Origin: an uncultured Clostridia bacterium
GTDB taxonomy: Bacteria > Bacillota > Clostridia > Oscillospirales > Acutalibacteraceae
Reading direction: 5' to 3'
Assembly: GCA_947644325.1 (NCBI GenBank)
Contig: CANRZD010000004.1
Location: 1 to 51,967, forward strand
Length of the DNA stretch: 51,967 bases
Of the stretch, positions 8,689-22,200 are shown in pieces. How positions within the stretch are numbered: the stretch's first letter is position 1; every line of letters begins with the position of its first letter. Both the position numbers and the translations under genes were made by a program. A model generated the notes under the pieces. It was not told where the DNA came from. It did not search any database and was given only the letters and a program-made list of their open reading frames with translations.

Positions 8689-10861
8689 TTTCTGGTTCCT
8701 CCTGTGTGGTTTTTTCCTCTGCGGCCTGCAGAAGCTGCAGCAATAGGGCCCCCGTGCCCACGTTGTACCCGCTGCAGGCGTAGAGTCCCCGGCCGCTCTT
8801 ATGGGCCAAAAGCACCAGGGGCAGGCGCTCCGGCTCTACGAAAAGTTGGCGCGAAAGGGCGGAAAGGCCGCTATAATCTGTGTCTTTTGGGGTAAAGAGG
8901 CGCACTGCGCACCTGTCCCCCCAGGCGCGAAAGCCCGCCTGCTCTTTTTTCAGCTCCCCTAAAAGGTGCTCCGTGGGCTCCCGGCCGGGCTCCAGCCAGC
9001 AGAACAGGGTGTAGGGCTTGTCCCCCAAATGCTCCCGGCCCGGAAAGGGCGGCAGGGGCAGGCTCTGCAGAAGCTGGCCGCTGCGGGGCCGGGGGAAACG
9101 CAGGGGGATCACCCGGGGCTCGCCCGCTTGTAAATCGAAGTCTTCCTGCCAAAAGAGCTGGTCGCCGCCGGGCAGGCGTACCGCCGTCAGCAGACGGAAG
9201 GCCCCCGCCGGCAGGGAGAGCGCCCGGGCCTCCCCGGCCTTCAGATGACCGGTGGAGAGGTGCTTCCAGGCCCCGTTTTTCAGGCGGGAAAGGGTGTAGT
9301 CCTGCCAGCAGGCGGCCCCGCGGTCTGCGGGGGCCAGAAGGGAGAGGGAGGCCGCGGCCGGGTCCCCGGGCCGCAGGAAGACGCCGTCCTTCTGGTATTC
9401 CGGCGCGCCGTCTAGTGGCGAGAGCCGGGCCGGGACGCCCGCCCTGCGGCACAGGGCGCAGAAAAGCACGTCCTTTGCGCCCTCCCCCGCCGCCCCCAGG
9501 GCCAGGGCGGAAAGGGGGCTCTGGGGCAGGTCCTTATAGCCGGGAAGGGCGGGCAGGGCCCGCACCCATTTCCAGATTTCCTCCGGGTCCCGGCCCAGGT
9601 CCGGGGAGGACCAGAAGCGCAGGGGCTCAAGGCCCACCCGGGGGCTCACAAGCTCCGGGGGCTTCTCAGGGTCGTAGCCCTCTAAGACGCGGGGGTCTAT
9701 ATCCTCCGAGCGGTCTTTTTCGCTGAGAAGGGCCCAGGGCCCTTGGGCGGGCCGCAGGGGGCGCTCCCGGCGCAGGGACGCCGCTTCCTCCAGCACGGCG
9801 GCCCGGCGGGCTTTCTGCTGGGCTGTCAAGGGGGGCGGGAACTGGTCGGGCGCCGCCGGGGCCCAAAAGGTGAACAGGCCCCCGGGGGCCGGGCCCGTGA
9901 GGGTCAGGCGGGCGCTGTGGAGGGTGTCCCACAAGGCCTCGGCCCGGCCCCCTGGCCACTGGGCGGTGACGAACACGCTGCCCAGCCCCAGGCGCAGGCG
10001 GGCCATGCCGGTTTCGTCCGCCACCCGCTGGGCGATGGGCCGGAAGGCCGCCATATTCAGCACGGAGAAGGTGACCCTGGCCCCCGCCGCCGGGGCCCCG
10101 TCGGGCTTATATACGGTGACGGCGCAGACCTTCGTGGGCGCGTACCGGGCGGTCAGCGTCTCGTAGAGAACGCCGTCCCGCAGGTCCAGGTCCACGGGGT
10201 CTGTGTGGGGGTAGAAGCGGGAGAAGTCCTCCCCCTCCCCCACAAACCACCGGGTGTGGATGAGCATGGCCCGCGCCGCCGCCCCGGTGAACCACCCCCG
10301 GTCCAGAAGGGGCTCGGGCTCGCAGGCGCCCAGGTACCGCCAGGACGAGCCGTCCCAGGCCTCCACCCAGGCGTGGTTATCGTCACAGTGGCTCCAGAAG
10401 GGGGCGTACACCTGCCGGGCGGCGATGCCTACGCTGCGCAGGGCGTTGACGGTAAAAGTGGATTCCTCCCCGCAGCGCCCCCATCCCCGGCGGTACACGG
10501 CCAGGGGCGAGGAGGTGCGGTCGTCTGTAGAGCGGTAGGTCACGTGCTGGGCGCACCAGCGGTTCACTTCCAATATGGCCTCCTCTAAGGAGAGCCCCCG
10601 CACCCGGGGGGCGAGCTCCTGATAAAAGAGGGGGCGGCAATCGCACAGCTCCTCGGTGTTCACCCGGGGGGCCAGCACGTCCCGCAGGAACAGGCCCTCG
10701 GGAAGGGCCCGGCACCAGGGGAATTCCCCCCGCACCAGACAGCCATGCCGGGCATAGGAGCGAAAGAGCTCTATGGGGTACTCCCCCAGGTCCGAGGGGG
10801 GCAGGGCCTTTAAGATGTGCTCTAAGAGCGCTTCCTCCCCGGCGTCTGACAGGCTCCTCAT
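8678..10861 (-). CDS. Large transglutaminase-like domain protein
   Basis: A 727-residue protein with no obvious signal peptide or membrane span. Residues about 85-185 form a transglutaminase/protease-like core: Cys in GRCGEES (C130), His in DNHAWVEAW (H163), and at the third position YLGACEPEP gives Glu (E181) where Asp is usual. A segment around PAAGARVTFSVLNMA with TGMARLRLGLGSVFVTAQW looks like an Ig/carboxypeptidase-regulatory-type domain. The remaining C-terminal half is not recognised. It may act as a protease or cross-linking enzyme on peptides or glycopeptides. It is coupled by ATGA to the alpha-fucosidase gene, which hints at a shared glycoprotein substrate. Confidence 0.75.
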   Translation of the reverse strand: MRSLSDAGEEALLEHILKALPPSDLGEYPIELFRSYARHGCLVRGEFPWCRALPEGLFLRDVLAPRVNTEELCDCRPLFYQELAPRVRGLSLEEAILEVNRWCAQHVTYRSTDDRTSSPLAVYRRGWGRCGEESTFTVNALRSVGIAARQVYAPFWSHCDDNHAWVEAWDGSSWRYLGACEPEPLLDRGWFTGAAARAMLIHTRWFVGEGEDFSRFYPHTDPVDLDLRDGVLYETLTARYAPTKVCAVTVYKPDGAPAAGARVTFSVLNMAAFRPIAQRVADETGMARLRLGLGSVFVTAQWPGGRAEALWDTLHSARLTLTGPAPGGLFTFWAPAAPDQFPPPLTAQQKARRAAVLEEAASLRRERPLRPAQGPWALLSEKDRSEDIDPRVLEGYDPEKPPELVSPRVGLEPLRFWSSPDLGRDPEEIWKWVRALPALPGYKDLPQSPLSALALGAAGEGAKDVLFCALCRRAGVPARLSPLDGAPEYQKDGVFLRPGDPAAASLSLLAPADRGAACWQDYTLSRLKNGAWKHLSTGHLKAGEARALSLPAGAFRLLTAVRLPGGDQLFWQEDFDLQAGEPRVIPLRFPRPRSGQLLQSLPLPPFPGREHLGDKPYTLFCWLEPGREPTEHLLGELKKEQAGFRAWGDRCAVRLFTPKDTDYSGLSALSRQLFVEPERLPLVLLAHKSGRGLYACSGYNVGTGALLLQLLQAAEEKTTQEEPENGK

Positions 10862-12174
10862 TTCAGCTGCACCTTTAAGACCGTGTCCACCGGGTCGGAC
10901 AGGATGGGGTCGGGGCCCAGGTCGGCGAAGACGATGTCGGGATAGGGGCCCTGCACCCAGCTGTTGGCTAAGGGGATCTCCGCCCCTGTAGCCAGCTCCC
11001 GGATATATTTCACCTGGTCCTTTGTGATGCCCGGCAGGGGCATGGGGCCCACGGTGTTTTCAAAGAGATGGTAGTAGAGGGTATCGCCCTTTCGGGTGAT
11101 GCGGCCGGTGTCGGGCTTGTCAATCCCCGCCTTGCCGCAGCCGTAGATGCTCTCGCTGTTTTTCTTCATCCAAGCGCCGATCTCAGACAGGATGTTCAGG
11201 GACTCCGGGGGGATGTTCCCCCGGGCGTCAGGGCCCACGTTCAGAAGGAGGTTGCCGCCCTTTGAGACACACTCCACCAGCTTCTTTATGAGCATGGAGG
11301 CGGGCTTAAAGAACCGGTCCTCCCGGCAGTAGCCCCAGTTGTTGTTCATGGTCACGCAGGCCTCCCAGGCGATGTCCTTGCCCTCTTTGTCCTGGATGCC
11401 GTTTGGGGGGATGATCTGCTCGGGGCTTATAAAGTCCCCGTGGTAGGGGGTGGGGTCGCACTCCCAAAGGGAGCCGAAGCCGTCGCCGCTTACCTCCAGG
11501 CGGTTGTCGATGATGACGTCGGGCTGCAGGGAGCGCACCATGTTCACAAGCTCTGTGGCCTTCCACTTCTCCCCGCGCATGACGTTATACTTGTCTTCGT
11601 AGGAGAAGTCAAACCACAGGATGTCGAGCTTCCCGTAGTTCGTGCACAGCTCCCGCACCTGGTTGTGCATGTAGGTAAGGTAGTTGTCGAAGTCCCGGCC
11701 CTCGTTGCCGTATTCGGGCTTAAAGCGCATGGGGTGGTTTCGGTCGCCGTAGTGGGGGTAGTCCTCGTGCACCCAGTCCAGAAGGGAGAAGTAGAGCCCC
11801 ACTTTCAGCCCCTCGGCCCTTCCGGCCTCCAAGAACTCCCGCACCAGGTCCCGGCCGCATTTGGTGTTGGTGGATTTGAAATCCGTGTACTGGCTGTCAA
11901 ACAGGCAGAAGCCGTCGTGGTGCTTGGATGTGAGCACCATGTACTGCATCCCCGCCTCTTTGGCGACCCTGGCCCACTTTCTGGGGTCGTAGTCCACGGG
12001 GTCGAACTCATCGAAGTAGGGCATGTAGTCCTCCTTCGTGATCTCCTCCACGCTGCGCACCCACTCCCCTCGGGCCGGGATGGCGTAGAGCCCCCAGTGG
12101 ATGAACATGCCAAAGCGCGCCTGGGTGTACCAGGCCATGCGCTTTTCGTACTCCGCTCGGTCAAATTTGTACAT
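10858..12174 (-). CDS. Alpha-L-fucosidase, glycoside hydrolase family 29
   Basis: A 438-residue GH29 enzyme that releases alpha-linked L-fucose with retention. The family block ARFGMFIHWGLYAIPARGEW is near residue 18, QYMVLTSKHHDGFCLFDS follows, and the likely nucleophile Asp sits in KLDILWFDFSYED. LLLNVGPDARGNIPPES is also characteristic. It has no signal peptide, so it probably works in the cytoplasm on imported oligosaccharides. I chose the ATG at 12174, 8 bases after AAGGAGG; an in-frame start exists 34 codons upstream but would span the promoter. It is the first gene of a three-gene operon ending with a nitroreductase. Confidence 0.9.
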   Translation of the reverse strand: MYKFDRAEYEKRMAWYTQARFGMFIHWGLYAIPARGEWVRSVEEITKEDYMPYFDEFDPVDYDPRKWARVAKEAGMQYMVLTSKHHDGFCLFDSQYTDFKSTNTKCGRDLVREFLEAGRAEGLKVGLYFSLLDWVHEDYPHYGDRNHPMRFKPEYGNEGRDFDNYLTYMHNQVRELCTNYGKLDILWFDFSYEDKYNVMRGEKWKATELVNMVRSLQPDVIIDNRLEVSGDGFGSLWECDPTPYHGDFISPEQIIPPNGIQDKEGKDIAWEACVTMNNNWGYCREDRFFKPASMLIKKLVECVSKGGNLLLNVGPDARGNIPPESLNILSEIGAWMKKNSESIYGCGKAGIDKPDTGRITRKGDTLYYHLFENTVGPMPLPGITKDQVKYIRELATGAEIPLANSWVQGPYPDIVFADLGPDPILSDPVDTVLKVQLK

Positions 12175-12211
12175 AAAGCCTGCCTCCTTTTCACGGTCTG
12201 CTTTTGATGCC

Positions 12212-12240
12212 AGTATAGCATAGCCGGGGCCGTTTGAAAA
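12212..12240 (-). promoter_or_regulatory. Promoter of the fucosidase operon
   Basis: On the minus strand TATACT (12217-12212) is preceded after 17 bases by TTTTCA (12240-12235). It lies about 40 bases upstream of the fucosidase start and directly downstream of the terminator of the phage-derived operon. Confidence 0.55.
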
Positions 12241-12249
12241 GGGGGCAAA

Positions 12250-12281
12250 GAAAAAAGCCCGCGGGGTTCTTCCCACAGGCT
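12250..12281 (-). terminator. Terminator of the phage-derived operon
   Basis: After the last baseplate gene (stop at 12290) the minus strand reads AGCCTGTGGG, a loop AAGAA, then CCCCGCGGGCT and a run of T (GGCTTTTTTC). This is a typical rho-independent terminator and marks the 3' border of the phage locus. Confidence 0.8.
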
Positions 12282-12289
12282 CTTTTCTC

Positions 12290-12745
12290 TTACTGCGCGA
12301 TACTCCAGCTTACGTGCAGGGGCATCAGGCGTTTCAGCTCCCCTTTGGCCTGGGCCTCTGGCAGCAGGTACTCCTCTGGGGTGATAAGGACCGCACCCCC
12401 CGCTTCCTCCGCCGTGCCCCGGATGCCCGCCGCCAGAAGCAGGCCGGGCATGTCTTCTAAGGAAACGGGCTCTGGCCGGGCCCGCAGCCGAGCTGAGAGC
12501 ATCTCCCTTCTGTCCTCCAGCGGGCAGCCCGCCGGGTGGGGCAGGAAAAGGGTCTCCCACTCCTTTAGGCGCTCCTCCCCGGTGGTGGCGGCAAAGCTGT
12601 CGGCGAAGGCCCTGAGAAGCTCCTCCTTCACCGCCGCGAACCCGGCCCCGTAGGCGGCAAGCTCCCACTTTAAGGGGGCGTTTTCTGTCAGGCGGTACGC
12701 GCCGCTCTCCCCCAGAATTTTTTCCATGTTTTCCAAAGCCGTCAC
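12290..12745 (-). CDS. Phage baseplate/tail-tip protein, YmfQ (DUF2313)/XkdU-like, gpI position
   Basis: A 151-residue protein starting VTALENMEKILGESGAYRL from a GTG. Its order directly after the gpJ-type gene, size and WETLFLPHPAG then DRREMLSARLRARP pattern match XkdU/YmfQ-type proteins (P2 gpI equivalents) that complete the baseplate wedge. The reading frame is open far upstream inside the gpJ gene, but the GTG at 12745 overlaps the previous stop (GTGA) and gives the usual family length. It is the last gene of the phage block; no tail fibre gene follows. Confidence 0.72.
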   Translation of the reverse strand: MTALENMEKILGESGAYRLTENAPLKWELAAYGAGFAAVKEELLRAFADSFAATTGEERLKEWETLFLPHPAGCPLEDRREMLSARLRARPEPVSLEDMPGLLLAAGIRGTAEEAGGAVLITPEEYLLPEAQAKGELKRLMPLHVSWSIAQ

Positions 12746-13806
12746 GAGAGCACCCCCAGAGAGAACCCGCCGGGGATGGGCTTCTCCCCCACGGCTGCCG
12801 TATAGTTCTGCATGCTGGCGGGCAGCTCTACCCGTATGGCCTCGGGCACCGCCTGCAGGGCCAGCCGCAGAAGCTCGGCGGCTGGCACGGCGTCCCCCAC
12901 TTGGCGGGCGCGCAGGTATTCCTGCATGACGGGCTCTGCCTGGGGCTTCACGTCGTCGTTTGTGACGCCCTCGGGCAGCTGGAAGCGCAGGAGCAGGTTT
13001 ATCTTCCGGGCCTTGGCCGCCTGCACGCTGAGAGTGGCCCCCAGGGCTTTTTTCTTTTCCAGGACCTCCTGGGCCTTTGCCAGCAGGGCTTCGTCCGGGG
13101 CGGCGTTTTCCCCCCACAGGTAGATGTTCACCTTGCCGGGGGTCTCCCCATCCGCCACCGCCTGGGCCGAGGTGATGCCCTCTATTTCCCGGGCTATGCT
13201 CTCGTAGTAGGCCGCGCTGCCTGTTACCAGGGGGCGCTTGTAGGCGTCCATCACCCGGGCCCGGTAGGCTTCCTCCGCCTCCTTGTCCCGGCCCCCGGTG
13301 AAGTCTGACCGGTTCGAGGCATACTGTATGCCCTCCACCGGCGTGACGAGGGTGTTGATGTACCCCTCGGCGGCGTTGCCCTTTTGGCCCGGCTCTACCG
13401 CCTGGGCGGGCGCCGCCACCGAAAGGGCACCCGCCGTGAGCACCGCCTCCGCTGTGGTCTCGTACTCCACGGCCTCTTCGCCGGAGGAGGCGCACAGGGT
13501 GCCCTTGGGGATGAGCAGATCAAAGCTCAGGGGCAGGTAGCGCACGAAGGTAATCTCCCCCACGGCCCTCTCTGCGGGCCTTCGCACGACGCCCCGCTGG
13601 GCCCCGTGCAGCTCCAGCTGGGCCCCGTCGGCCGTGCCGGGGAAGCTCTGCCTGCGTATCCACTGGGCCTCGCACTGGGCCCGGTAGAGCTCCCCGGCCA
13701 GCACCCGCAGCCGCAGCCCTATGTCCGACACCATTTCTGCCGGGCTGCCGCCGGCCTCCACATAGGCGTCCTCCATGGTCTTCAAGATGCCTGCGTAGCT
13801 TTCCAT
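12742..13806 (-). CDS. Phage baseplate J-like protein (XkdT/gpJ family)
   Basis: A 354-residue baseplate wedge protein. It has the typical layout: helical N-terminus with GGSPAEMVSDIGLRLRVLAGEL, a central domain with GTLCASSGEEAVEYETT (the 'conserved value' strand pattern), GNAAEGYINTLVTPVEGI and EAEEAYRARVMDAYKRP, then an alpha/beta C-terminus. Such proteins form the wedge arms of contractile-tail baseplates. The gene overlaps its upstream neighbour by 25 bases and the next by GTGA, so the block is translated as a coupled set. Confidence 0.85.
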   Translation of the reverse strand: MESYAGILKTMEDAYVEAGGSPAEMVSDIGLRLRVLAGELYRAQCEAQWIRRQSFPGTADGAQLELHGAQRGVVRRPAERAVGEITFVRYLPLSFDLLIPKGTLCASSGEEAVEYETTAEAVLTAGALSVAAPAQAVEPGQKGNAAEGYINTLVTPVEGIQYASNRSDFTGGRDKEAEEAYRARVMDAYKRPLVTGSAAYYESIAREIEGITSAQAVADGETPGKVNIYLWGENAAPDEALLAKAQEVLEKKKALGATLSVQAAKARKINLLLRFQLPEGVTNDDVKPQAEPVMQEYLRARQVGDAVPAAELLRLALQAVPEAIRVELPASMQNYTAAVGEKPIPGGFSLGVLS

Positions 13807-14126
13807 ACGGTTACCTCCCCCTCTCCCAAGGGCGTGCGCAGGGTGAATTTCACGCCCGATTCCGTTTCTTCGGCGCTTACAGCCTCCACGCCGGGCATAT
13901 CCAGCAGCGCCTCATTGGCAAGGGCCCGCGCCCGTTCCAGGGCGTGCTCCTCCTGGGGGTCCCACTGCCAAAGGCCGCTGCCCAGCCCCCGCCCGTAAGG
14001 GAAGGCCCCCCGGCGCAGGGACATGCGCAGGCAGGCGTTCTGCAGCAGCTCCTCCAGGCCCTCTGCCCGCTGCAGCACCCCTGTGGGCCCCCGGGCGTGG
14101 ACCCCTTCTGTGACCTTCATATCCAT
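13782..14126 (-). CDS. Baseplate wedge protein, gp25/W- or XkdS-like
   Basis: A 114-residue protein, MDMKVTEGVHARGPTGVLQRA at the start and LLQNACLRMSLRRGAFPYGRGLGS in the middle. The last part (VEAVSAEETESGVKFTLRTPLGEG) matches the gp25/DUF2634 group, which nucleates sheath assembly in contractile systems. The call uses size, these motifs and its position immediately before gpJ. An AAAGGAGG ribosome site precedes the ATG. Confidence 0.65.
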   Translation of the reverse strand: MDMKVTEGVHARGPTGVLQRAEGLEELLQNACLRMSLRRGAFPYGRGLGSGLWQWDPQEEHALERARALANEALLDMPGVEAVSAEETESGVKFTLRTPLGEGEVTVWKATQAS

Positions 14127-14138
14127 TTTGTGCCTCCT

Positions 14139-14456
14139 TTACTTTGAGAAGACCTGGCCGTTTATGACCACGTCCCCGTTATTCTTCAGCCGTATCTCCG
14201 CGCCCCCGGCGGAGTAGAGCCGCACTTCCCCGGCATCCAGGGTACTGTCCGTGTCTGTGACCACCCCGGCGCAGTAGCTTCCCAGCATCACGGCCTCCTT
14301 GCCGCTGTCCGCCCGGCTGATGAGCCCGTAGGGCGCCACCTGCTCCGGCGACTGGAACTTCTTCTCCCCCTGCACCAAAAGCTCCTCGCCGCTCTGCACC
14401 AGGCCGTTTCGCATGCGCAGGCCCTCGGGGGGCTGCAGCTTTCTTGTCAGCCACAT
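14139..14456 (-). CDS. Small baseplate spike-like protein (gpV/gp45 C-terminal type)
   Basis: A 105-residue protein. Its C-terminus DAGEVRLYSAGGAEIRLKNN followed by GDVVINGQ is the repeating strand pattern of phage spike tips such as gpV and Mu gp45. The N-terminal OB-fold of full-length spikes appears short or reduced. The frame is open upstream, but the ATG at 14456 overlaps the end of the hub gene and gives a compact protein. Membrane-piercing spikes sit at the centre of the baseplate under the hub. Confidence 0.6.
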   Translation of the reverse strand: MWLTRKLQPPEGLRMRNGLVQSGEELLVQGEKKFQSPEQVAPYGLISRADSGKEAVMLGSYCAGVVTDTDSTLDAGEVRLYSAGGAEIRLKNNGDVVINGQVFSK

Positions 14457-15346
14457 GCTGCCTGCCCCCCTTCCAGCGTCAGGCGGGTCCTGAGGCCCCT
14501 GCCGTCCCGGCAGCACCGGGCGCTTATGACCGGGCACTTTGTGAGCTTCCCCAGCTTTGGTAGCTCCACAGAGACTGTTTTGCCCCGCAATGGCCACAAG
14601 ATGCCCGCGCACTCCAGGGTGACGCTGCGGCTCTCCGCTTGGGACTTTTGCAGCAACTCCTTGGGGTTTGTGCCGCTGTCTATGCTCACATAGCGCCTGC
14701 GCTGTGCGATGGCCCCCGGCTGCCGGTAGGGGGTGTCGTACCCGCCGCCGAAGCTCTGCTTATACACCTCTGAGATCTCCCGGCAGGGCTTGTGGGAGAT
14801 TTCCGCCCATATCACGTCAGAAAGGACGACCTCCTCTTCTTTATACCCCTCACAGTGCAGCACCCCGTCGGGGTCTATATAGGGCACGGTGCCCAGCACC
14901 CCCGCACAGAATGCAGAGAGCACCTGCCAGCAGCTCATGCCCTTCTCGATTTCCAGCATCCCGGGGGCCGCTTTGTCCCCGCCCTCTATGCGGGTAAAGC
15001 CCAGGGGCTCCAGCAGGCGGGTGGAAAGGGCCTTGAGAGACGGGCTCCGGATGGGGTCGGGGCAGGCCTCGTTATCGAGAAGCAGGGCTTCCAGGCTCCT
15101 GCACACCAGCTCTATCCAAACGCCCTCCGGGCCCAGGCGGGTATTCTGCTCGTCTACAATGCCCCGAAACACCGCAAAGCCCCCCTCGTACACCACAATC
15201 TCCGAAAAGGTTTCCCACAGCCTCTCCGCCGGGAACACCGCCCGAAGCGCGTCGGCGGGGGCGTCCCGGTCAAAGGCCAGGGCCATTTCCTTTGGGTCCC
15301 CCAGAAGCATCTGCCCCCCGTCCTTCAAAATGCCCCAGCACGTCAC
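14447..15346 (-). CDS. Baseplate hub protein, gpD/XkdQ-like
   Basis: A 299-residue protein with an early beta-rich segment (VVYEGGFAVFRGIVDEQNTR), LVCRSLEALLLDNEA, a central MLEIEKGMSCWQVLSAFC and DPDGVLHCEGYKEEEVV. This is the order seen in XkdQ/late-control gpD hub proteins, which cap the tail tube. The GTG start at 15346 overlaps the LysM gene stop (GTGA). The neighbours (LysM before, spike after) agree with the PBSX order xkdP-xkdQ. Confidence 0.7.
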   Translation of the reverse strand: MTCWGILKDGGQMLLGDPKEMALAFDRDAPADALRAVFPAERLWETFSEIVVYEGGFAVFRGIVDEQNTRLGPEGVWIELVCRSLEALLLDNEACPDPIRSPSLKALSTRLLEPLGFTRIEGGDKAAPGMLEIEKGMSCWQVLSAFCAGVLGTVPYIDPDGVLHCEGYKEEEVVLSDVIWAEISHKPCREISEVYKQSFGGGYDTPYRQPGAIAQRRRYVSIDSGTNPKELLQKSQAESRSVTLECAGILWPLRGKTVSVELPKLGKLTKCPVISARCCRDGRGLRTRLTLEGGQAACG

Positions 15347-15858
15347 GGGATACGCACCTCCTCCCCCTGCTCCAGGCAGGCGATGTCCCGGATGTGCAGG
15401 TTTACCCGGTGCAGCTCCTCTATGGGTATCTCATAGCGGGCGGCGTAGTCCCACAGGCTCTCCCCGGCGCAGGCCCGGTGCGCCTTGCCCCCCTTATAGC
15501 CCGCGGGGCCCCTGTGCTCGGTAAAGAGGAAGCTGTAGTGTACATGGTCCCCTCCGGGCTCCCCCAAAAGCCGCAGCTCCTCCAGCACCGCCAGAAAGGG
15601 GGCCTGGCCCGGCAGCTGCAAAAATTTCGCCCCGCCCTCTGCGAAGACGGCGCTGAGCTCCTGCCAGCGCTTTAAGCGGTCAGGGCCCGTAAACCAGCCC
15701 TCGCCGCTTACCCGCCGTTTCTTTGCCCCCAAATCTTCCAGCCGGCTGCCCGCAAAGGGCAGCGCCGTCTCCCGCAGGGCGCGGCCCATCTGAAGCTTCA
15801 GGGCCGTGGGGTTTGCCTGCCAGGTGATGTCGCCGAAGCTCATAGTCATGTAGTTCAT
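15343..15858 (-). CDS. LysM-domain tail/baseplate adaptor (XkdP-like)
   Basis: A 171-residue protein. The first ~110 residues (MNYMTMSFGDITWQANPTAL, RVSGEGWFTGPDRLKRWQEL) resemble the tail-protein domain found with LysM in phage adaptors, and the C-terminus (ACAGESLWDYAARYEIPIEE, CLEQGEEVRIP) is one LysM repeat. In PBSX and contractile injection systems this protein joins tube to baseplate. The ATG at 15858 has AAGGAGG 7 bases upstream; a GTG at 15885 overlaps the stop of the 25-codon ORF. It comes directly after the site where the tail-shaft genes would be expected. Confidence 0.7.
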   Translation of the reverse strand: MNYMTMSFGDITWQANPTALKLQMGRALRETALPFAGSRLEDLGAKKRRVSGEGWFTGPDRLKRWQELSAVFAEGGAKFLQLPGQAPFLAVLEELRLLGEPGGDHVHYSFLFTEHRGPAGYKGGKAHRACAGESLWDYAARYEIPIEELHRVNLHIRDIACLEQGEEVRIP

Positions 15859-15881
15859 CCCATCCCCTCCTTTTTCACGTC

Positions 15882-15959
15882 TCACAGCTTTACCGGATAC
15901 CTCCGGCTGTCCCGCTCAAACTCCCGGGACATGGCCTCCGCCTGCTCCAAAGCTTCCAT
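15882..15959 (-). CDS. 25-residue ORF at the tail-cassette junction
   Basis: A tiny frame starting MEALEQAEAMSREFERDSRR, strongly charged and probably helical. Its ATG directly follows the TAG stop of the 221-residue upstream gene (TAGATG), and its TGA overlaps a GTG of the next frame, so it sits inside a coupled gene string. No function is recognised. It could be a real small assembly factor or the trimmed end of a lost gene such as a tape-measure chaperone. Confidence 0.45.
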   Translation of the reverse strand: MEALEQAEAMSREFERDSRRYPVKL

Positions 15960-16625
15960 CTACTCACCCCCCTCCCGCCGGTGGAAGGAGGTGAACACGG
16001 CGCTTTTCCCGGTCTCGTCCAGGCTCTTCCACCGGCACCGGGCATATTCCTGTCCGCCTATCTCCACGGTAAAGCCCGCCAGCCGCTCGAGGCCCCTGGT
16101 GTCCACGCCGCTTATCTCCACTGTGTAGCGTACCCCGCCCACCTGGGCGAAGGGCTCCTCCTCCCCTATGGCGGTAAGGGCCCGGCCCGGGTCTATCTGC
16201 ACGGCCCACCCGGCGGCCGGCCGCTCTACGCCGCCGATGACGGCCCGCACGCCGCCTTCTGCGCCGCTTTCTTCAAAGGAGACAAAGCACCCCGCCGCCA
16301 AGAGCCCCGAGGCCTTATCCGGCCCGAAGCCCTCCCGCCTGATCTCCGCCACTGTCGGGAAGGCTTCCCGCACGACGGCCCCCATGGCCTCCAGCAGCTC
16401 CTCCCCTGTTTTCAGGGCCGCCCCCCGGGGCAGGAACACCGTAAGGGAAAGCTTTGCGCTCCACTGGCCCCCTGCGTCCTTTTCGCCTGCCACCTGGCCC
16501 GTGACCACCGGCTTATCCGGCAGGCGCTCGGCCTTCCCGGGCCCCCAGCATTCCCGGAAGTCCGCCCCCGGTATCTTCTCCCGAAAGGCCTCCAGCAGCC
16601 CCGTCAAGCGCTCATAGGCCCGCAT
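15960..16625 (-). CDS. Phage tail-completion-like protein, possibly two-domain
   Basis: A 221-residue protein. The first half (MRAYERLTGLLEAFREKIPG; GQWSAKLSLTVFLPRGAAL; LEAMGAVVREAFPTV) has the pattern of tail-terminator proteins of the XkdJ position. The second half (GRALTAIGEEEPFAQVGGVR, VEISGVDTRGLERLAGFTVE) is predicted mainly beta and not recognised. It overlaps the preceding gene by 14 bases. In PBSX-type clusters sheath and tube genes follow here; in this locus only a 25-codon ORF does. The role is inferred from order more than similarity. Confidence 0.45.
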   Translation of the reverse strand: MRAYERLTGLLEAFREKIPGADFRECWGPGKAERLPDKPVVTGQVAGEKDAGGQWSAKLSLTVFLPRGAALKTGEELLEAMGAVVREAFPTVAEIRREGFGPDKASGLLAAGCFVSFEESGAEGGVRAVIGGVERPAAGWAVQIDPGRALTAIGEEEPFAQVGGVRYTVEISGVDTRGLERLAGFTVEIGGQEYARCRWKSLDETGKSAVFTSFHRREGGE

Positions 16626-16938
16626 CCTCGTCCCTCCTCTCCAGCACCGCCCGGGTGCACACCAGGGTGTCCCCCAGCATCACCCGCCTGCCCCACAGCA
16701 CCGTGTACCGCTCGCCGCCCTGCTCCAGCAGGTCCCCGGGGACAAGCTGGGGGAGGCTTCCCGTAAACACGTAAAGGGGCTCCTGCAGCCGCCCCAGCTC
16801 ATGGCCCAGGGCCCCCAGGGCGTCGCCGGAGGCGCTTTTGTGGCGGCACACCGCCCCCCGGCCCTCCCGCACCGTCCCGTCCGATGCCAGAAGCCTTACC
16901 CTGTCCATATGGCGGAAGACCCGGCCCGCAATTTCCTT
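16612..16938 (-). CDS. Small head-closure/connector-like protein
   Basis: A 108-residue protein starting from GTG as VKEIAGRVFRHMDRVRLLAS. The later part, PLYVFTGSLPQLVPGDLLEQ and ERYTVLWGRRVMLGDTLVCT, suggests a beta-barrel stopper of the head-completion type. The GTG at 16938 is preceded by AAGGAG at 10 bases; the longer frame from 16971 would need a TTG start that lies upstream of this site. Position between connector and tail-completion genes supports a neck role. Confidence 0.5.
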   Translation of the reverse strand, partial: KEIAGRVFRHMDRVRLLASDGTVREGRGAVCRHKSASGDALGALGHELGRLQEPLYVFTGSLPQLVPGDLLEQGGERYTVLWGRRVMLGDTLVCTRAVLERRDEDAGL

Positions 16939-16987
16939 CACGAGAGCTTCACTCCTTTCCAAAAGCCGCAAAGCGCGGCACCTATTC

Positions 16988-17359
16988 TTACGCTTGCACG
17001 CTGCCGAAATAGAACCCCTCTTCCCTGAGAAGCCCCCGGCACGCCCGCCTTTTTTCCTCCGCCAGGCCCAGGGCCTTTTCCCCGCGCCTGCCCATCTCCA
17101 GCTTTATCTCCGGGGCCGACACGCTCTCCGGGCACAGCGCCTCGTCTATGAGCGTCAGCTGGTAGAAGGCTTCGGCCGCGGCCAGGGCTTCTAAGGGCCC
17201 TAAGCTTTCCTCCGCGCCTTTTTCCACCAGACCCCCTATCCACTCCCGGCACTCCCGGCACAGGGCTTTGCACAGGGCCCACCGGGCCTCGTCCTCTTCT
17301 TTTTCCCCGCTATATAGGGAAAACTTCTCCAGCACCTTTTCTTCCCTCAGTTCAGCCAT
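16988..17359 (-). CDS. Helical head-tail connector-like protein
   Basis: A 123-residue, mostly helical protein, MAELREEKVLEKFSLYSGEK followed by ALCKALCRECREWI and LEALAAAEAFYQLTLIDEAL. Size, helical content and place right after the major capsid gene fit the gp6-type head-tail connector. I see no firm motif. A GGGAGGG ribosome site lies before the ATG. Six cysteines are present, unusual for this class. Confidence 0.5.
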   Translation of the reverse strand: MAELREEKVLEKFSLYSGEKEEDEARWALCKALCRECREWIGGLVEKGAEESLGPLEALAAAEAFYQLTLIDEALCPESVSAPEIKLEMGRRGEKALGLAEEKRRACRGLLREEGFYFGSVQA

Positions 17360-17371
17360 ACGTCCCTCCCT

Positions 17372-17404
17372 GAAAAAGCGGTCAGGGCGGGCCTGCGCCC
17401 GCCC
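17372..17404 (-). terminator. Hairpin after the major capsid gene
   Basis: The minus strand holds a perfect 8-bp stem GGGCGGGC/GCCCGCCC with a four-base loop (17404-17385), then TGACCGCTTTTTC. The stem lies about 37 bases beyond the capsid stop. Such hairpins often let the capsid gene be transcribed more than the genes after it. The U-run starts 7 bases from the stem, so termination may be partial. Confidence 0.45.
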
Positions 17405-17441
17405 CTTCCCCGCGCTGCTTTTTTCTGACTATCTGCCCCGC

Positions 17442-18449
17442 TTACTTGGAAGCAGAGTAGGAAATGCCCTGGGCCGCCCCCTCATAGATGCGGGCAAACC
17501 CGGCGGTGACGCTGATGGCCGCCCGCTCCAGCTGGCGGTCCATGAGCTTGTCGTAGTCGGTGACGATGTCCCCGGCCTGCACCAGCTCCAGGGCGCAGGT
17601 CTTGTCTAAGGCGATGATCTTCCCGGCCTCCATGGTGGGCACATGGATGAGTTTCGCGCCCAAGGGCGTCACCAGATTGCCGGTGCCCTGGAAGTTCATG
17701 CCCGCCTGGGCGTCCTTGAACTCGGAGATGTTCAGAAGCTTCTCCATGGCGTCGGTGCCCGCCAGCACGGTGTTGAGGGTGTAGGGGGCCAGCTTTCCCC
17801 ACAGGCCCACAAAGTCCCCGTAGTTGGGCGTGCCGGAGGCGAAGGTGATGCCCGGCTTGCCGCCGTCGCCGTTTATAAGGGTGTCCACGGCGTCCTGCAT
17901 CTGGGCGGCGCAGATATAGGCGCCGATCTGCCGCAGGGTCACGGTGAACAGCTCCAGCTTCTGGAAGCGCAGCGCTTCGTAAGAAGTCACCAGCATCCGG
18001 CCGCGCTTGTGGAGCTTCACAAGGCCCTCGCTGGTGCGGATGGTGGTGCTGGGCAGCTGGGCCCCCTCGGCCACAGGCTTTAAGGACTTGTCGTCCCCGG
18101 CCCCGGTGGTGATGGGCCGGTAGTCCAGCCCCTCGATGGTAGTCACCGCCGCGGCGATATCCGCGGGCTTTGTGACGCTCTCCATGCCCTGGCGCACCGC
18201 CCTTGCGATGAATTCGGGGAAAAGGGCCGCGCTGCCGGAGCTTCCGAAGAAGCTCTCCACCGTGCTGGACTGGGGCCCGCTCACCTTAATACCGTAGCGC
18301 ATGAGCTGGCGCTGGTAGGCGTCCAGGTCCTCCAGGGGCGTGTCCCGGTAGTTTTCCGAGCGGTCCAGCTCCTCCAGCACCTGGGTGAAGGTCTTGCCCG
18401 GCACGCCGTACATGCCCTTTTCCAGCGTAATGTTCTTAAAATAAGCCAT
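17442..18449 (-). CDS. Major capsid protein, HK97-fold type
   Basis: A 335-residue protein beginning MAYFKNITLEKGMYGVPGKT. An N-terminal helical part is followed by AALFPEFIARAVRQGM, ITTGAGDDKSLKPVAEGAQL and LVKLHKRGRMLVTSYEALR, the E-loop/spine pattern of HK97-like capsids, then DAVDTLINGDGG and the A-domain-like LGAKLIHVPTMEAG. It follows a protease and a small head protein and precedes connectors, the canonical order. It has a strong GGAGG site and a hairpin behind it. I consider the family assignment good although no search was run. Confidence 0.82.
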   Translation of the reverse strand: MAYFKNITLEKGMYGVPGKTFTQVLEELDRSENYRDTPLEDLDAYQRQLMRYGIKVSGPQSSTVESFFGSSGSAALFPEFIARAVRQGMESVTKPADIAAAVTTIEGLDYRPITTGAGDDKSLKPVAEGAQLPSTTIRTSEGLVKLHKRGRMLVTSYEALRFQKLELFTVTLRQIGAYICAAQMQDAVDTLINGDGGKPGITFASGTPNYGDFVGLWGKLAPYTLNTVLAGTDAMEKLLNISEFKDAQAGMNFQGTGNLVTPLGAKLIHVPTMEAGKIIALDKTCALELVQAGDIVTDYDKLMDRQLERAAISVTAGFARIYEGAAQGISYSASK

Positions 18450-18489
18450 AAATAAAAACCTCCATTAAAATGTATTCAGCTAAGTTTTT

Positions 18490-18828
18490 TCAGAACAGGA
18501 TGCCGCACACCCCTGCGGCGCTGTCCACATCCAGCACAAAGCCCGGCCGGCCGCTTGTGCCCTTTGCCAACTTCCCATCGGCCCCGCAGGCAAAGAGCCC
18601 GAAGCCCACCGTCACGCCAGAGGCGCAGGGCGCCCGCATGTACCCCTGGGTCTGCACCCCGCACAGGCCCTCGCGCACCCCGCGCGCAAGGCCCAGGGGC
18701 ACGTCGCCGCTGGCGGCGCAGGGGGCCACTGTGCCCTGCGCGCTCACCTTCACCAAGTCCCCGGCCTTTACGCCGTTCGCCTCAAAGGTCACCATGTTTT
18801 CCCCAATCCCGTCAAACGCTACCTTCAT
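18490..18828 (-). CDS. Small head protein, decoration/DUF2190-like
   Basis: A 112-residue beta-rich, glycine-rich protein starting MKVAFDGIGENMVTFEANGV, with VSAQGTVAPCAASGDVPLG and GFVLDVDSAAGVCGILF. Small proteins of this kind between protease and capsid genes decorate or stabilise HK97-type heads. AAGGAGGAG precedes the ATG. The function is from order, size and composition. Confidence 0.6.
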   Translation of the reverse strand: MKVAFDGIGENMVTFEANGVKAGDLVKVSAQGTVAPCAASGDVPLGLARGVREGLCGVQTQGYMRAPCASGVTVGFGLFACGADGKLAKGTSGRPGFVLDVDSAAGVCGILF

Positions 18829-18848
18829 AAAAAGCTCCTCCTTAAAAA

Positions 18849-19730
18849 TTAAATTTTATACGCACGGTTCCCCACAGAGGGCTCCGTTACGTCCTTCCCC
18901 CCAGAGAGCTGGGGCCGCAGGGGCAGGGCCTTCTGGGCCATCCGCTCATAGGTGCGGCCCATGGCCCGCAGCTCCCCCATGCTCAGCCCTTTCACCGCCG
19001 ACTTCATCACTTCCCTGGGCAGCTCCGGCTGCACCAGGGCGCTGTATTTCAGCACCTGGGCCGTCAGGCTCTCCCGGTACTTCCGGCCCCAGCGGGCTTC
19101 CTCCTCCAGGCGGCGCAGGCCCCTGCCAGGGCCCTGGCCGTACCTTTTGGTGACCCCCGCCCCCTTCTGGGCCGGCACCGCCACGAAGGAGCATTCATAA
19201 GCGTCCGTGGGCTCCAGCAGCAGCTGGTGCACGATCTCGCCGCCTATGTCCTCCCCGGGCAGGTGCTCGCAGTCCTCTTTTCCGCACAGGCTGCACACCC
19301 GCCTTGCCACCGCGCAGCTGACGCTCACTTCCTTGAGCATCCCGCTGTCTATGCGGGCGATGGTCTCTTCGTTGCCCTTTGTCCTTGGCAGGTACGCCCG
19401 GGCCGTGAGCTGGGTCAGGGGCTCGCCGCCCTCCGAAAGCTCCTCCGGGTCCTCCATCAGGGCCGTGTCGAAAATTCTGGCCGCCTGGTTCCCATTGGCC
19501 CTGTCATGCTCAAAGATGCACGTCTTGCCCAAAAACAGCTCCCTGAGCTTCTCCAGGGACGCTATTGGGAACCGCTCCCCGTCCCGGTCCACCCGGTTGT
19601 CGCACAGCACCATAGAGAACACATACACCTCCTCCGGCTCATAGGGCCGCCGGGTGTACTGGTTGATTTTCTCCATGTCCTCCGGGCTCACTTCCTGCCG
19701 GAGGTCCTCCGCCACATAGCCTTCCTTCAT
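18849..19730 (-). CDS. Phage prohead protease / scaffold-like protein
   Basis: A 293-residue protein beginning MKEGYVAEDLRQEVSPEDME. EVYVFSMVLCDNRVDRDGER, EHDRANGNQAARIFDTALME and KEVSVSCAVARRVCSLCGKE followed by AYECSFVAVPAQKGAGV fit capsid maturation proteases: an early His in EHD and Ser in SVS, both usual catalytic positions. The rest (RLEEEARWGRKYRESLTAQV) is charged helix, like a fused scaffold. The Cys pair CSLCGKEDC is unusual and might bind metal. The ATG at 19730 has GAAAGGAAGG upstream; the longer frame would use TTG. Confidence 0.68.
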   Translation of the reverse strand: MKEGYVAEDLRQEVSPEDMEKINQYTRRPYEPEEVYVFSMVLCDNRVDRDGERFPIASLEKLRELFLGKTCIFEHDRANGNQAARIFDTALMEDPEELSEGGEPLTQLTARAYLPRTKGNEETIARIDSGMLKEVSVSCAVARRVCSLCGKEDCEHLPGEDIGGEIVHQLLLEPTDAYECSFVAVPAQKGAGVTKRYGQGPGRGLRRLEEEARWGRKYRESLTAQVLKYSALVQPELPREVMKSAVKGLSMGELRAMGRTYERMAQKALPLRPQLSGGKDVTEPSVGNRAYKI

Positions 19731-19761
19731 ACGCGCCTTCCTTTCTCGCAAAAATTTTTTC

Positions 19762-20904
19762 CTACCGGATGCCCCATCTGGCGGTGTCGTCCGCCGCCCC
19801 CTGCTCCTTTTCCAGCTCTTTTTCCAGCTTCCTGGCCTTGGCCGTCAGATACCGGGCGTTGGCGTGGTCCACCTCGTCCTGCATGGTGATCTCATCCCAC
19901 ACGATCTCCGCCTCCGGCTCGTAGCCCTCAAGCGTCAGCCACGTCCGGCAGATCTTCTCCGCCACCGGCGTCAGCACCCGGCGGTAGGCGTCCAGCTCAC
20001 TTGTGAGCACGTCCGCCTGCTGGCTGGACATCCTCTCTGTAGAGGACCAGGAGAGCCCCAGCAGAAACGGCGGCAGCCCCAGCTTCGCCACGATCTGCTC
20101 CAGCATCTGCCTGACGGGCACGTCGCTTTCCATGGTCTGGCCGTCGGGCCCTATGGCCTTGATGGTCACGTCGCCCACCGCCACAAAGTCCCGGGTCTCA
20201 ACGCTTTTCATGGCCCGCTGCCACTCCTTTGCCACCTGCCTGGCCCGCTCCCCGGCCAGGGCCCCGGGGCCCTCGGGCTTGCAGGTCACCGCGAAGCGCA
20301 CGTTGCCCATGCGCTCCCAGTTGTCCCCCAGGGTGCGGTAGATCTTCAGCAGCACGTTGCTGACAAAGGGCAGCCCCCGCAAAAGGGACGTGCCCCAGGG
20401 GCTCCCCGCCGCCGGGTTCAATGCCGACACCAGAAGCAGCTGGGGGTAGGGCGCCTCCTCATACCCCCCGGGCCCCAGGGCGCTGACTTTGAGCCCCAAA
20501 GGCCCGTCGGCCTCCAGCCGCACCCCCTCCAGGCCCGCGTTGTAGAGGGCCCCGATCTGCCCGCCGGAAAGCACCATCTCCCCCACCGCGGTGCCGTAGG
20601 TCACCAGCTCCTCCAGGTAGATGCCCAGAAACTCGTGGACGCCCACCCCGGCGGCGTTTACCTTAACGTTTCTCAGGAACGCCCGCAGGCCCTTCTGGGC
20701 CTCCTCGTCCCGGCACGTGACGGTAAACTCCCCGATGAGCCGGCGCAGCTTATACACCGCCGCGTCGATAATGGGCACCGATTCCCGCAGCGCCCGGTAC
20801 AGGGCCCGCTCCCCGGCGGCCATGGGCAGGGGGCCGCCCCCGGGGCCCGGGGCCGTCTGCACTGTCAGGGCGGATGGCCGCTCCCGCCTTTTGAATCCCA
20901 GCAA
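19762..20904 (-). CDS. Phage portal protein
   Basis: A 380-residue portal protein that would form the dodecameric ring at the capsid vertex. PIIDAAVYKLRRLIGEFTVT at the N-terminus, LEELVTYGTAVGEMVLSGGQ, QMLEQIVAKLGLPPFLLGLS and SSTERMSSQQADVLTSELDA are typical of the family. The start is a TTG at 20904 with AAAGGAG 9 bases upstream; the nearby ATG is out of frame. This is the first gene of the phage-derived operon. In active phages terminase genes come before portal, but here only a promoter region and divergent host genes are found. Confidence 0.85.
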   Translation of the reverse strand: MLGFKRRERPSALTVQTAPGPGGGPLPMAAGERALYRALRESVPIIDAAVYKLRRLIGEFTVTCRDEEAQKGLRAFLRNVKVNAAGVGVHEFLGIYLEELVTYGTAVGEMVLSGGQIGALYNAGLEGVRLEADGPLGLKVSALGPGGYEEAPYPQLLLVSALNPAAGSPWGTSLLRGLPFVSNVLLKIYRTLGDNWERMGNVRFAVTCKPEGPGALAGERARQVAKEWQRAMKSVETRDFVAVGDVTIKAIGPDGQTMESDVPVRQMLEQIVAKLGLPPFLLGLSWSSTERMSSQQADVLTSELDAYRRVLTPVAEKICRTWLTLEGYEPEAEIVWDEITMQDEVDHANARYLTAKARKLEKELEKEQGAADDTARWGIR

Positions 20905-20978
20905 AACGCATCACTCCTTTCTTTCTGTTTTGAGGGGCTCTTTGAAAGCTCCCTCTATATACCCCGTAAAAAACAGGA

Positions 20979-21004
20979 AAAGTTGTCCTCCAGAGGACAA
21001 CTTT
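20979..21004. promoter_or_regulatory. 26-bp near-perfect palindrome, probable operator of the phage-derived operon
   Basis: Two perfect 12-base arms (AAAGTTGTCCTC and its complement) surround a 2-base centre CA. It lies in an AT-rich island between two divergent genes. On the minus strand it ends about 10-20 bases upstream of a TATATA (about 20956-20961), so it would overlap the -35 area of the portal promoter. No gene is transcribed toward it from either side, so a terminator role is less likely than a repressor site. The regulator is not visible in the window. Confidence 0.6.
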
Positions 21005-21065
21005 CGAAAAACTTTTTCAAATTTTTTTCCTTTTTTAATTTTACCTTACGAAACGCCCCCATCCC

Positions 21066-21094: not shown

Positions 21095-21144
21095 AATACA
21101 AAGCAAAGGCGTAAATGCCTATGACACAGAAAGGAAGATGCGTT

Positions 21145-21513
21145 ATGGCAGACAATAATCAATATAACCATTCCTACAACACCTACTATAACCAGTCCCC
21201 CTACCAGCAGGAGGAGCAGCCCCCCATGTACAATCCCCCCCAGTACCAGCCCCAGGCCGGCATGGACCCCCCTCCCGGCTACATCCAGAAGAGCCGGGTG
21301 GCGGCGGGCATCCTGGCTATCCTACTGGGGGCCTACGGCATCCACAGCTTCTACCTGGGCAACACCTCCCGGGGGCTGGTGCAGCTTCTCGTGTCCTTCC
21401 TCACCTGCGGCGTGGGCGCCATCGTCATGGAGATCTGGGGCATCTTGGACGGCATCAAGCTCTTGGACGGCCGCATCAACACCGACGCAAACGGCGTATT
21501 CTTAAAAGACTAG
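21145..21513 (+). CDS. TM2-domain membrane protein 1
   Basis: A 122-residue protein. The first ~50 residues are rich in Tyr, Gln, Asn and Pro (MADNNQYNHSYNTYYNQSPY). The TM2 domain follows: QKSRVAAGILAILLGAYGIH, FYLGNTSRGLVQLLVSFLTC and MEIWGILDGIKLLDG, two membrane helices joined by a short turn. TM2 proteins have no settled function in bacteria. ATG at 21145 has AAAGGAAG upstream. It is paired with a longer paralogue 30 bases downstream. Confidence 0.85.
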   Translation: MADNNQYNHSYNTYYNQSPYQQEEQPPMYNPPQYQPQAGMDPPPGYIQKSRVAAGILAILLGAYGIHSFYLGNTSRGLVQLLVSFLTCGVGAIVMEIWGILDGIKLLDGRINTDANGVFLKD

Positions 21514-21543
21514 ACCCCTCATAAACGAAAGGAGCGAACGTAC

Positions 21544-22200
21544 ATGTCTGAACTTGAAAATAAAAACCTGGAGCAGACCCCCCAGGAGCCCCCGCAGGAG
21601 CCCCAGGAGCCCAAAGAAGCCCCCGCCGCCCCTACCCCGGAGCCTGCCTATGAAAAGCCCACTCCCCACCTGACTTTAGAGCCCGACCTGCCCCCCGAGC
21701 CCCCGGTCTATGAGGCCACAACTCCTCAGAACCCCGGCTCTGCCGCCGCCCCCTTCCATATGCCGGAGCCCCCCCGGGCCCCGGAACCCCAGCCCTACGA
21801 GCCCCAAAAGGCCCAGCCCCAGTCCAATTATAACGGCCAGTACCAGCAGGAGCCCCAGTACCAGCCTCCTCAGTACCAATATCAGCCGCCCCAGCCCCAG
21901 CAGCCCTACTATAACTACACCCCCCAGTACAATACCCCCCCGGCGGGCTACGTGCAGAAAAGCCGCCTGGCCGCGGGCCTGCTGGCCATCATGCTGGGCG
22001 TCTTCGGGGTGCACAACTTCTACCTGGGCTTCAACACCCGGGGCACCATCCAGCTGATCCTGTCCCTGGCAGGGGGCCTGCTCACCTGCGGCGTGGCCAC
22101 CATAGCCACCCTCATCTGGTCCTTTATCGAGGGCGTCATGATCCTCTCCGCCCAGCCCTCCCGCATGTACGACGGCAACGGCGTCATCCTGCGGGACTGA
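21544..22200 (+). CDS. TM2-domain membrane protein 2 with long Pro/Gln-rich N-terminus
   Basis: A 218-residue paralogue of the preceding gene. About 130 residues of low-complexity Pro, Glu, Gln and Tyr sequence (TPQEPPQEPQEPKEAP; YQPPQYQYQPPQPQQPYYNY) precede a TM2 domain (KSRLAAGLLAIMLGVFGVHN, FYLGFNTRGTIQLILSL). The long tail is likely disordered, and cytoplasmic or external side cannot be told. The pair looks like a tandem duplication followed by tail growth. A terminator lies 25 bases beyond its stop. Confidence 0.85.
   Translation: MSELENKNLEQTPQEPPQEPQEPKEAPAAPTPEPAYEKPTPHLTLEPDLPPEPPVYEATTPQNPGSAAAPFHMPEPPRAPEPQPYEPQKAQPQSNYNGQYQQEPQYQPPQYQYQPPQPQQPYYNYTPQYNTPPAGYVQKSRLAAGLLAIMLGVFGVHNFYLGFNTRGTIQLILSLAGGLLTCGVATIATLIWSFIEGVMILSAQPSRMYDGNGVILRD

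Follow-up and report, generated by a model that had tools for sequence, protein, structure and literature searches.

What does a bacterium gain from a block of phage head and baseplate genes lying among its own metabolic genes? The question arises from a minus-strand operon (locus A, positions 12290-20904) in the window, that is, the whole stretch of 51,967 nucleotides analysed here (contig CANRZD010000004.1 of assembly GCA_947644325.1). It comes from an uncultured Clostridia bacterium of the Acutalibacteraceae, whose draft genome (1.99 Mb, 136 contigs) is about 90% complete. The original prediction described a capsid-plus-baseplate operon lacking the whole tail shaft and the DNA-packaging set, and considered a domesticated particle such as a head resembling a gene transfer agent (GTA) or a short-tailed device. 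The best explanation, and a probable one, is that two chromosomal loci together encode a GTA-like particle system which has been domesticated and is inherited vertically. That the element is domesticated is strongly supported, and its GTA nature moderately supported.

The block comprises 14 open frames, 13 larger ones and one of 25 codons, with no internal stop; summed gene length is 8466 within a span of 8615, and six overlaps measure 4-25 bases each, which bears out the intact, tightly overlapping frames first described. Portal, capsid, hub and gpJ genes are matched by sequence to tailed-phage families, and the particle genes are thus phage-derived, one of the GTA criteria given in the viriform paper (PMC9662315). 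The first gene labels fit the family matches (Table 1), weakly so for the spike, gp25-like and gpI-like proteins (E 0.04, 0.004 and 0.001). In the head region, portal, small head protein and capsid hold; the 'protease' is named by position only, and family searches with nk1 and nk2, the two neck proteins, gave no significant match.

Conservation supports domestication. The portal gene, single copy in the source genome, occurs in 24 of the 29 genomes of the genus Acutalibacter/Neglecta and in 17 of the 20 good-quality ones. Among the 24 genus loci read (the window and 23 fetched), the operon lies on one contig from portal to gpI in 17, with cement or nk2 below detection in some; four loci (G004, G014, G015, G021) are cut by contig ends and one (G001) is unclear. 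The second head gene was detected in 20/20 loci of the first locus set. Two TM2-domain genes come next before the portal in 19 loci and before a TerS-TerL terminase pair in three, a count covering 22 loci, as the flank is not visible in G001 and G015. Wherever the flank can be read, the operon thus occupies one site, which rules out a recent mobile copy and is the opposite of the scattered copies beside full prophages that the original prediction had named as contrary evidence. The capsid gene extends further, to 229/398 genomes of the family (190/288 good ones, 82/135 genera) and 71/394 genomes of the order (Oscillospirales in GTDB naming), including five other families; it is nearly always single copy. 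A second, divergent major-capsid-like gene (47-50% identity) lies away from the operon in one genus member (L353, G008 contig C72).

The structural genes are under purifying selection. In every gene and pair for which it is defined, the ratio of nonsynonymous to synonymous substitution (dN/dS) stays below 1. Between the window and its nearest relative, 13 genes give 0.16-0.32; the 13 species pairs span 0.04-0.68, with the top values in G022-G023. Since many synonymous distances are high, all these ratios are rough. Together with the intact frames, these values rule out simple decay. Within the genus, distances correlate at 0.55-0.84 among portal, capsid, TerL2 (the second terminase described below) and nagB, the one linked host gene. 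The same site and the distance correlations correspond to the mostly vertical inheritance and host co-diversification expected of GTAs. Same-site conservation, purifying selection, spread through family and order, and intact frames in most carriers all strengthen the early suggestion of a domesticated particle with a GTA-like head or a short-tailed device.

The packaging set is indeed missing from the block, and not from the genome, which has TerS2, both ends of TerL2, a holin and a repressor at a second locus (locus B); a true absence of terminase is thereby ruled out. At the loci sampled from other genera of the family, the motor is encoded in cis. TerS and TerL stand directly before the portal in 17/17 loci from 13 other genera, and for named genomes (80 loci kept of 579 found, 56 with enough upstream DNA) TerL precedes the portal in 53 of the 56, all three exceptions coming from Acutalibacter/Neglecta. 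Within this genus, a cis pair (with TerL1) is found at the portal in 3/29 genomes (G013, G022, G023), and six further genomes have weaker TerL matches elsewhere, not at the portal. A PHROG terminase search matched 29/29 genomes, weak partial matches, including one at E 2.5e-4 in the source genome, not being counted.

TerL2, which gives no BLAST match to the first TerL over 150 columns, is present in 25/29 genus genomes (at L198 and L204, for example) and absent only from G013, G022 and G023, which have the cis TerL, and from G020, where the portal is missing as well. TerL1 beside the portal and TerL2 never co-occur in the genus (Fisher p 0.001, not corrected for relatedness), and all 21 operon-bearing genomes without a cis terminase carry TerL2, the source genome as two ends. 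Its orthologues are 59-98% identical among 17 of 20 frames compared. Portal distances follow those of TerL2 (r 0.84, 18 taxa, 0/2000 permutations as high) and those of the locus B repressor (r 0.77, 16 genomes). From this complementary distribution and co-divergence, we infer that TerL2 serves the locus A capsids and fills their heads.

In genome G003, locus B lies between host genes and consists of a divergent S24-peptidase/helix-turn-helix repressor, orf87, TerS2 (GP3_package), TerL2 (Terminase_3), a holin (Phage_holin_4_1) and an amidase (Amidase_2). Across 24 TerL2 loci, some of them short, 23 have TerS2 and 19 give a long repressor match. A holin of the G003 type occurs in 12, and 10 show amidase matches, which in G008 and G025 are confined to the C-terminal end. 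In the source genome the locus is divided between two contigs. C76 ends 28 residues into TerL2, after the repressor, orf87 and TerS2; C68 has the final 55 TerL2 residues together with the holin and a lysin-like stretch. By eye, a GH25-like lysin follows the holin in G025 and in the source genome, and small holin-like frames are seen at locus B of G016. A fixed genus site and a second locus, if the two are linked as we infer, agree with the full endogenisation, often over several loci, that characterizes GTAs.

The anatomy of the tail is more subtle than first described. Loss of the shaft stands for sheath and tape measure: the block contains no sheath gene and no tape-measure-sized frame. It does not stand for the tube, which is kept as a domain of the 221-residue 'neck' protein, so that the tube homologue which the original prediction had named as contrary evidence is in part present among the unassigned proteins; this alters the anatomy and fits a GTA-like reading. 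In predicted structures, the N-terminal part of this protein has a gpU-like terminator fold and the C-terminal part a tube/Hcp-like fold, and both folds match the RcGTA particle structure 6tba. True absence of the tube is ruled out by this domain. When the whole 221-residue model is used, the terminator part fills the fold-match list and the tube is absent from it. With no sheath or tape measure, and with the tube present only as a fused domain, the block differs from contractile PBSX-type phages and tailocins; with a portal in the operon and terminase ends in the genome, the system also differs from encapsulin-like compartments, HK97-fold shells without portal or terminase. A conserved sheath acting in trans was considered and rejected, as a sheath profile matched 5/29 genus genomes (G002, G008, G011, G017, G027), none adjoining the operon by coordinates, and gave no match in the source genome. 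A sheath is still present at many loci from other families of the order.

A microprotein motif precedes the LysM gene in 35/38 loci (exact or loose, judged by eye). The 25-residue peptide stands at the tape-measure position and may help to set a tail about one ring long. This idea is weakened because the peptide is also present at L054, L056, L057 and L063, where the gap between neck and LysM genes is short and no tube was detected. Tail reduction could have proceeded from sheath and tube to a tube without sheath, then to the terminator-tube fusion and finally to no recognisable tube. An order-wide GTA lineage of gut Clostridia, with such a stepwise reduction and with exchange of the motor in Acutalibacter for the second-locus terminase, is quite possible and is put forward tentatively.

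As a working model, locus A would provide the head (portal, probable protease, capsid, cement), the neck, a stub tail made of the terminator fused to the tube without sheath or tape measure, and a contractile-phage-type baseplate with its LysM adaptor. Locus B would provide the S24 (LexA/CI-type) repressor, TerS2, TerL2, holin and endolysin. Stress would inactivate the repressor, TerS2/TerL2 would load heads with chromosomal DNA in a headful fashion, and neck and baseplate would be added after filling. Holin and lysin would then free the particles, whose LysM/baseplate end would dock on the cell wall of a neighbour. In evolutionary terms, the tail would have been whittled down, and a motor encoded in trans would have taken the place of the original one. 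It is a prediction that particles are made, take up DNA and deliver it, and that the two loci are regulated together; packaging of the system's own genome in one piece would be unlikely given the two-locus layout. Regulation offers a candidate element: a TTGAC-N5-GTCAA palindrome upstream of the repressor gene at locus B, with at most one mismatch in 14/16 genomes (e.g. L199, L195, L221) and two mismatches in the source genome, is probably the operator of the S24 repressor.

Several observations weigh against a two-locus GTA-like system. In the source genome the contig break falls inside TerL2, whose middle is unassembled. The tube-fold match is moderate (best Foldseek E 8e-3). The evidence for vertical inheritance covers this one genus and a single linked host gene. 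A repressor operator shared by both loci was sought and rejected, since the palindrome occurs before locus A in 0/16 genomes with up to one mismatch; for words of 9 bases, sharing between the two leaders is no higher or lower than across genomes, and for words of 10 and 11 bases it is slightly higher (7 and 3 words, from three and two genomes). In the portal tree, the cis-terminase genomes are nested, with moderate support, inside the TerL2 carriers, so that the terminase swap was not one simple event. TerL2 can also exist without locus A, as four genomes (G012, G019, G024, G028) carry it with no detectable portal or clear gpJ (G028 only at E 6e-6); two of them, G019 and G024, have the repressor, and next to their TerL2 neither a holin nor an amidase was matched. 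TerL2 is further found in three other genera (G054, G066, G146), none of them among the capsid matches. A true phage record, that of Microcystis phage MACPNOA1, contains a related portal (29.5%), and two genus members (G017, G011) have a broken operon.

Three rival explanations are less likely. It is unlikely that the system is a DNA-free device, in which the motor was lost in this genus, the product is a wall-binding bacteriocin-like particle or a protein compartment, and locus B stems from another element. Such a device would account for the disappearance of cis TerS-TerL from most of a genus whose structural genes are still under selection, for the four genomes with TerL2 and no detectable operon, and for the want of a regulatory site common to both loci. 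It accounts poorly for the presence of TerL2 in 21/21 operon genomes without a cis terminase and in 0/3 of those with one, for the conservation of a portal, which is required for DNA passage, and for the co-diversification of portal and TerL2. An active mini-prophage or satellite, moved with the help of other phages, is highly improbable: the structural-gene cluster is small and relatives do occur in viral databases, whereas no integrase is found among the ten flanking proteins scanned, the genus site is fixed, the portal is single copy, and its distances track those of nagB, a nearby host gene (r 0.60, 10 taxa), as well as those of TerL2. Slimmer still is the chance of a decaying remnant of an ordinary prophage. 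Viewed in one genome alone, the element lacks integrase, replication, sheath and tape-measure genes, and the two broken relatives would suit decay; intact frames with their dN/dS range across species pairs, one chromosomal site throughout the genus and the distribution across family and order all speak against it.

The GTA-like reading also has to be compared with known systems. PBSX of Bacillus subtilis has the gene order head-neck-LysM-hub-gp25-gpJ-gpI. Locus A follows the same order, and locus B shares with PBSX a Terminase_3 match and a holin-amidase pair; the present system differs from PBSX in having no sheath, separate tube or tape measure, in keeping head and motor loci apart, and in occupying one site across the genus. 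RcGTA has its terminase in the main cluster. According to PMC9662315, RcGTA, from Alphaproteobacteria, is likewise domesticated and spread over several loci, and it is to its particle that the terminator and tube folds match; it differs by a 49-nm tail. The same source describes BhGTA of Brachyspira, with a single-copy terL outside the structural cluster, whose role is also unproven; it is a precedent for a terL apart from the structural genes, and differs by a flexible 65-nm tail and by belonging to another phylum (PMC9662315).

A closer setting is given by PMC12946183 (2026), which describes the packaging of random DNA in three families (Ruminococcaceae, Oscillospiraceae, Christensenellaceae) and, in Faecalibacterium, an FpGTA encoded by two operons, with particles reported to lack identifiable tails. 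Both FpGTA and the present system are found in gut Clostridia and consist of inherited phage-derived genes at two loci, with terminase, holin and endolysin. Operon I of FpGTA, described as most likely podovirus-like, combines TerS and TerL with the portal, scaffold and capsid genes, and operon II holds lysis genes and a baseplate (PMC12946183). Here, in contrast, head, neck and baseplate are at one locus and motor and lysis at the other, the baseplate is of contractile type, and no scaffold gene is recognised. A term search did not find Acutalibacter in the text of PMC12946183. No description of this system, and no paper pairing 'Acutalibacteraceae' with 'gene transfer agent', was found in the literature searched, most subscription journals and preprints being outside its coverage.

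If the GTA-like reading is true, a large and old lineage exists in Gram-positive gut bacteria, reaching more than half of the genomes sampled from one family (229/398) and extending to further families of the order. Its gene clusters could be compared with those gut Clostridia that are reported to package DNA in a GTA-like manner and in which no operon was found. They also form a natural series for studying to what extent phage tails can be shortened and how a new motor can be fitted to a retained head. The system is testable in named carriers, which are Acutalibacter sp. 1XD8-33 (TerL2 type), Caproicibacter fermentans (cis-TerL type) and Caproiciproducens. In the NCBI taxonomy, Acutalibacter and Caproicibacter are placed in Acutalibacteraceae and Neglectibacter in Oscillospiraceae.

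Table 1. Features of locus A and its borders (positions in the window; E values from family searches)
Feature	Position	Strand	Basis or remark
Terminator hairpin 3' of last gene	12245..12292	-	-30.5 kcal/mol, z -7.2; not listed by a simpler scan
gpI/Gp48-like tail protein, 151 aa	12290..12745	-	Phage_Mu_Gp48 E 0.001 (weak)
gpJ-like baseplate wedge, 354 aa	12742..13806	-	Baseplate_J E 4e-47
gp25-like baseplate wedge, 114 aa	13782..14126	-	phrog_120 baseplate wedge E 0.004 (weak)
Spike, gp45-like, 105 aa	14139..14456	-	Phage_Mu_Gp45 E 0.04 (weak); phrog_25991 (unknown function) E 5e-6; position
Baseplate hub, XkdQ-like, 299 aa	14447..15346	-	phrog_177 baseplate hub E 8e-14
LysM baseplate adaptor, XkdP-like, 180 aa	15343..15885	-	DNA_circ_N E 2e-4; LysM E 0.0015
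Conserved microprotein, 25 aa	15882..15959	-	motif like EELSREIERDSRRYP; between fusion gene and LysM gene
Tail terminator (residues 1-120) fused to tail tube domain (about 118-221)	15960..16625	-	predicted folds
Neck protein nk2, 109 aa	16612..16941	-	named from position; detected in most genus loci
Neck/head-completion protein nk1, 123 aa	16988..17359	-	named from position; detected in most genus loci
Major capsid protein, 335 aa	17442..18449	-	Phage_capsid_4 E 3e-11; phrog_3922 E 1e-82
Small head/decoration (cement) protein, 112 aa	18490..18828	-	phrog_4588 virion structural protein E 1e-12
Second head gene, probable prohead protease, 300 aa	18849..19751	-	phrog_16951 (unknown function) E 3e-83; function from position only
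Portal protein, 380 aa	19762..20904	-	phrog_30703 E 4.6e-122; Phage_portal weak; 24/29 genus genomes
Palindrome/terminator-like hairpin in portal leader	20978..21005	-	13/20 genus loci without cis terminase
Two TM2-domain host genes before operon in genus	21115..22200	+	site marker, outside the device

The block is bounded as originally described, with its own strong terminator hairpin after the last gene and ordinary host genes on its flanks: all ten neighbouring proteins scanned, among them alpha-L-fucosidase, transglutaminase, NagB and EamA, belong to host families, with no integrase, terminase, lysis or other phage protein among them. The window holds no tRNA. The hairpin in the portal leader shows apparent compensatory variants among loci and is a possible attenuator or operator.

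Some individual loci and records deserve mention. In L096 (G017), the start of the portal is fused in frame to nk1 in a 303-codon frame; protease, cement and capsid genes are gone and the downstream genes are kept. In L088 (G011 contig C16), the capsid match is truncated and gpJ lies about 130 kb off on the same contig, and this operon appears to have been split by rearrangement or insertion. In L191 (G028, positions 9897-14053), TerL2 lies beside a 766-residue portal-like frame of another kind, named by eye, and the locus may show the element from which TerL2 originated. Out of 50,697 phage records, six match the portal, namely the Microcystis phage and five faecal contigs without annotation; none of the best 80 among 332 IMG/VR relatives is on a contig longer than 28.1 kb. 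The longest faecal match (L002, MT835508.1, 46.7 kb) has ribosomal-protein and Rnf-like genes, named by eye, around a TerS-TerL-portal-capsid cluster; because of these surrounding genes, the record is a bacterial chromosome mislabelled as phage. Finally, many relatives (L050, L051, L053, L054 and others) have a fibre-like open reading frame after gpI, at the place occupied in the window by the alpha-L-fucosidase gene.

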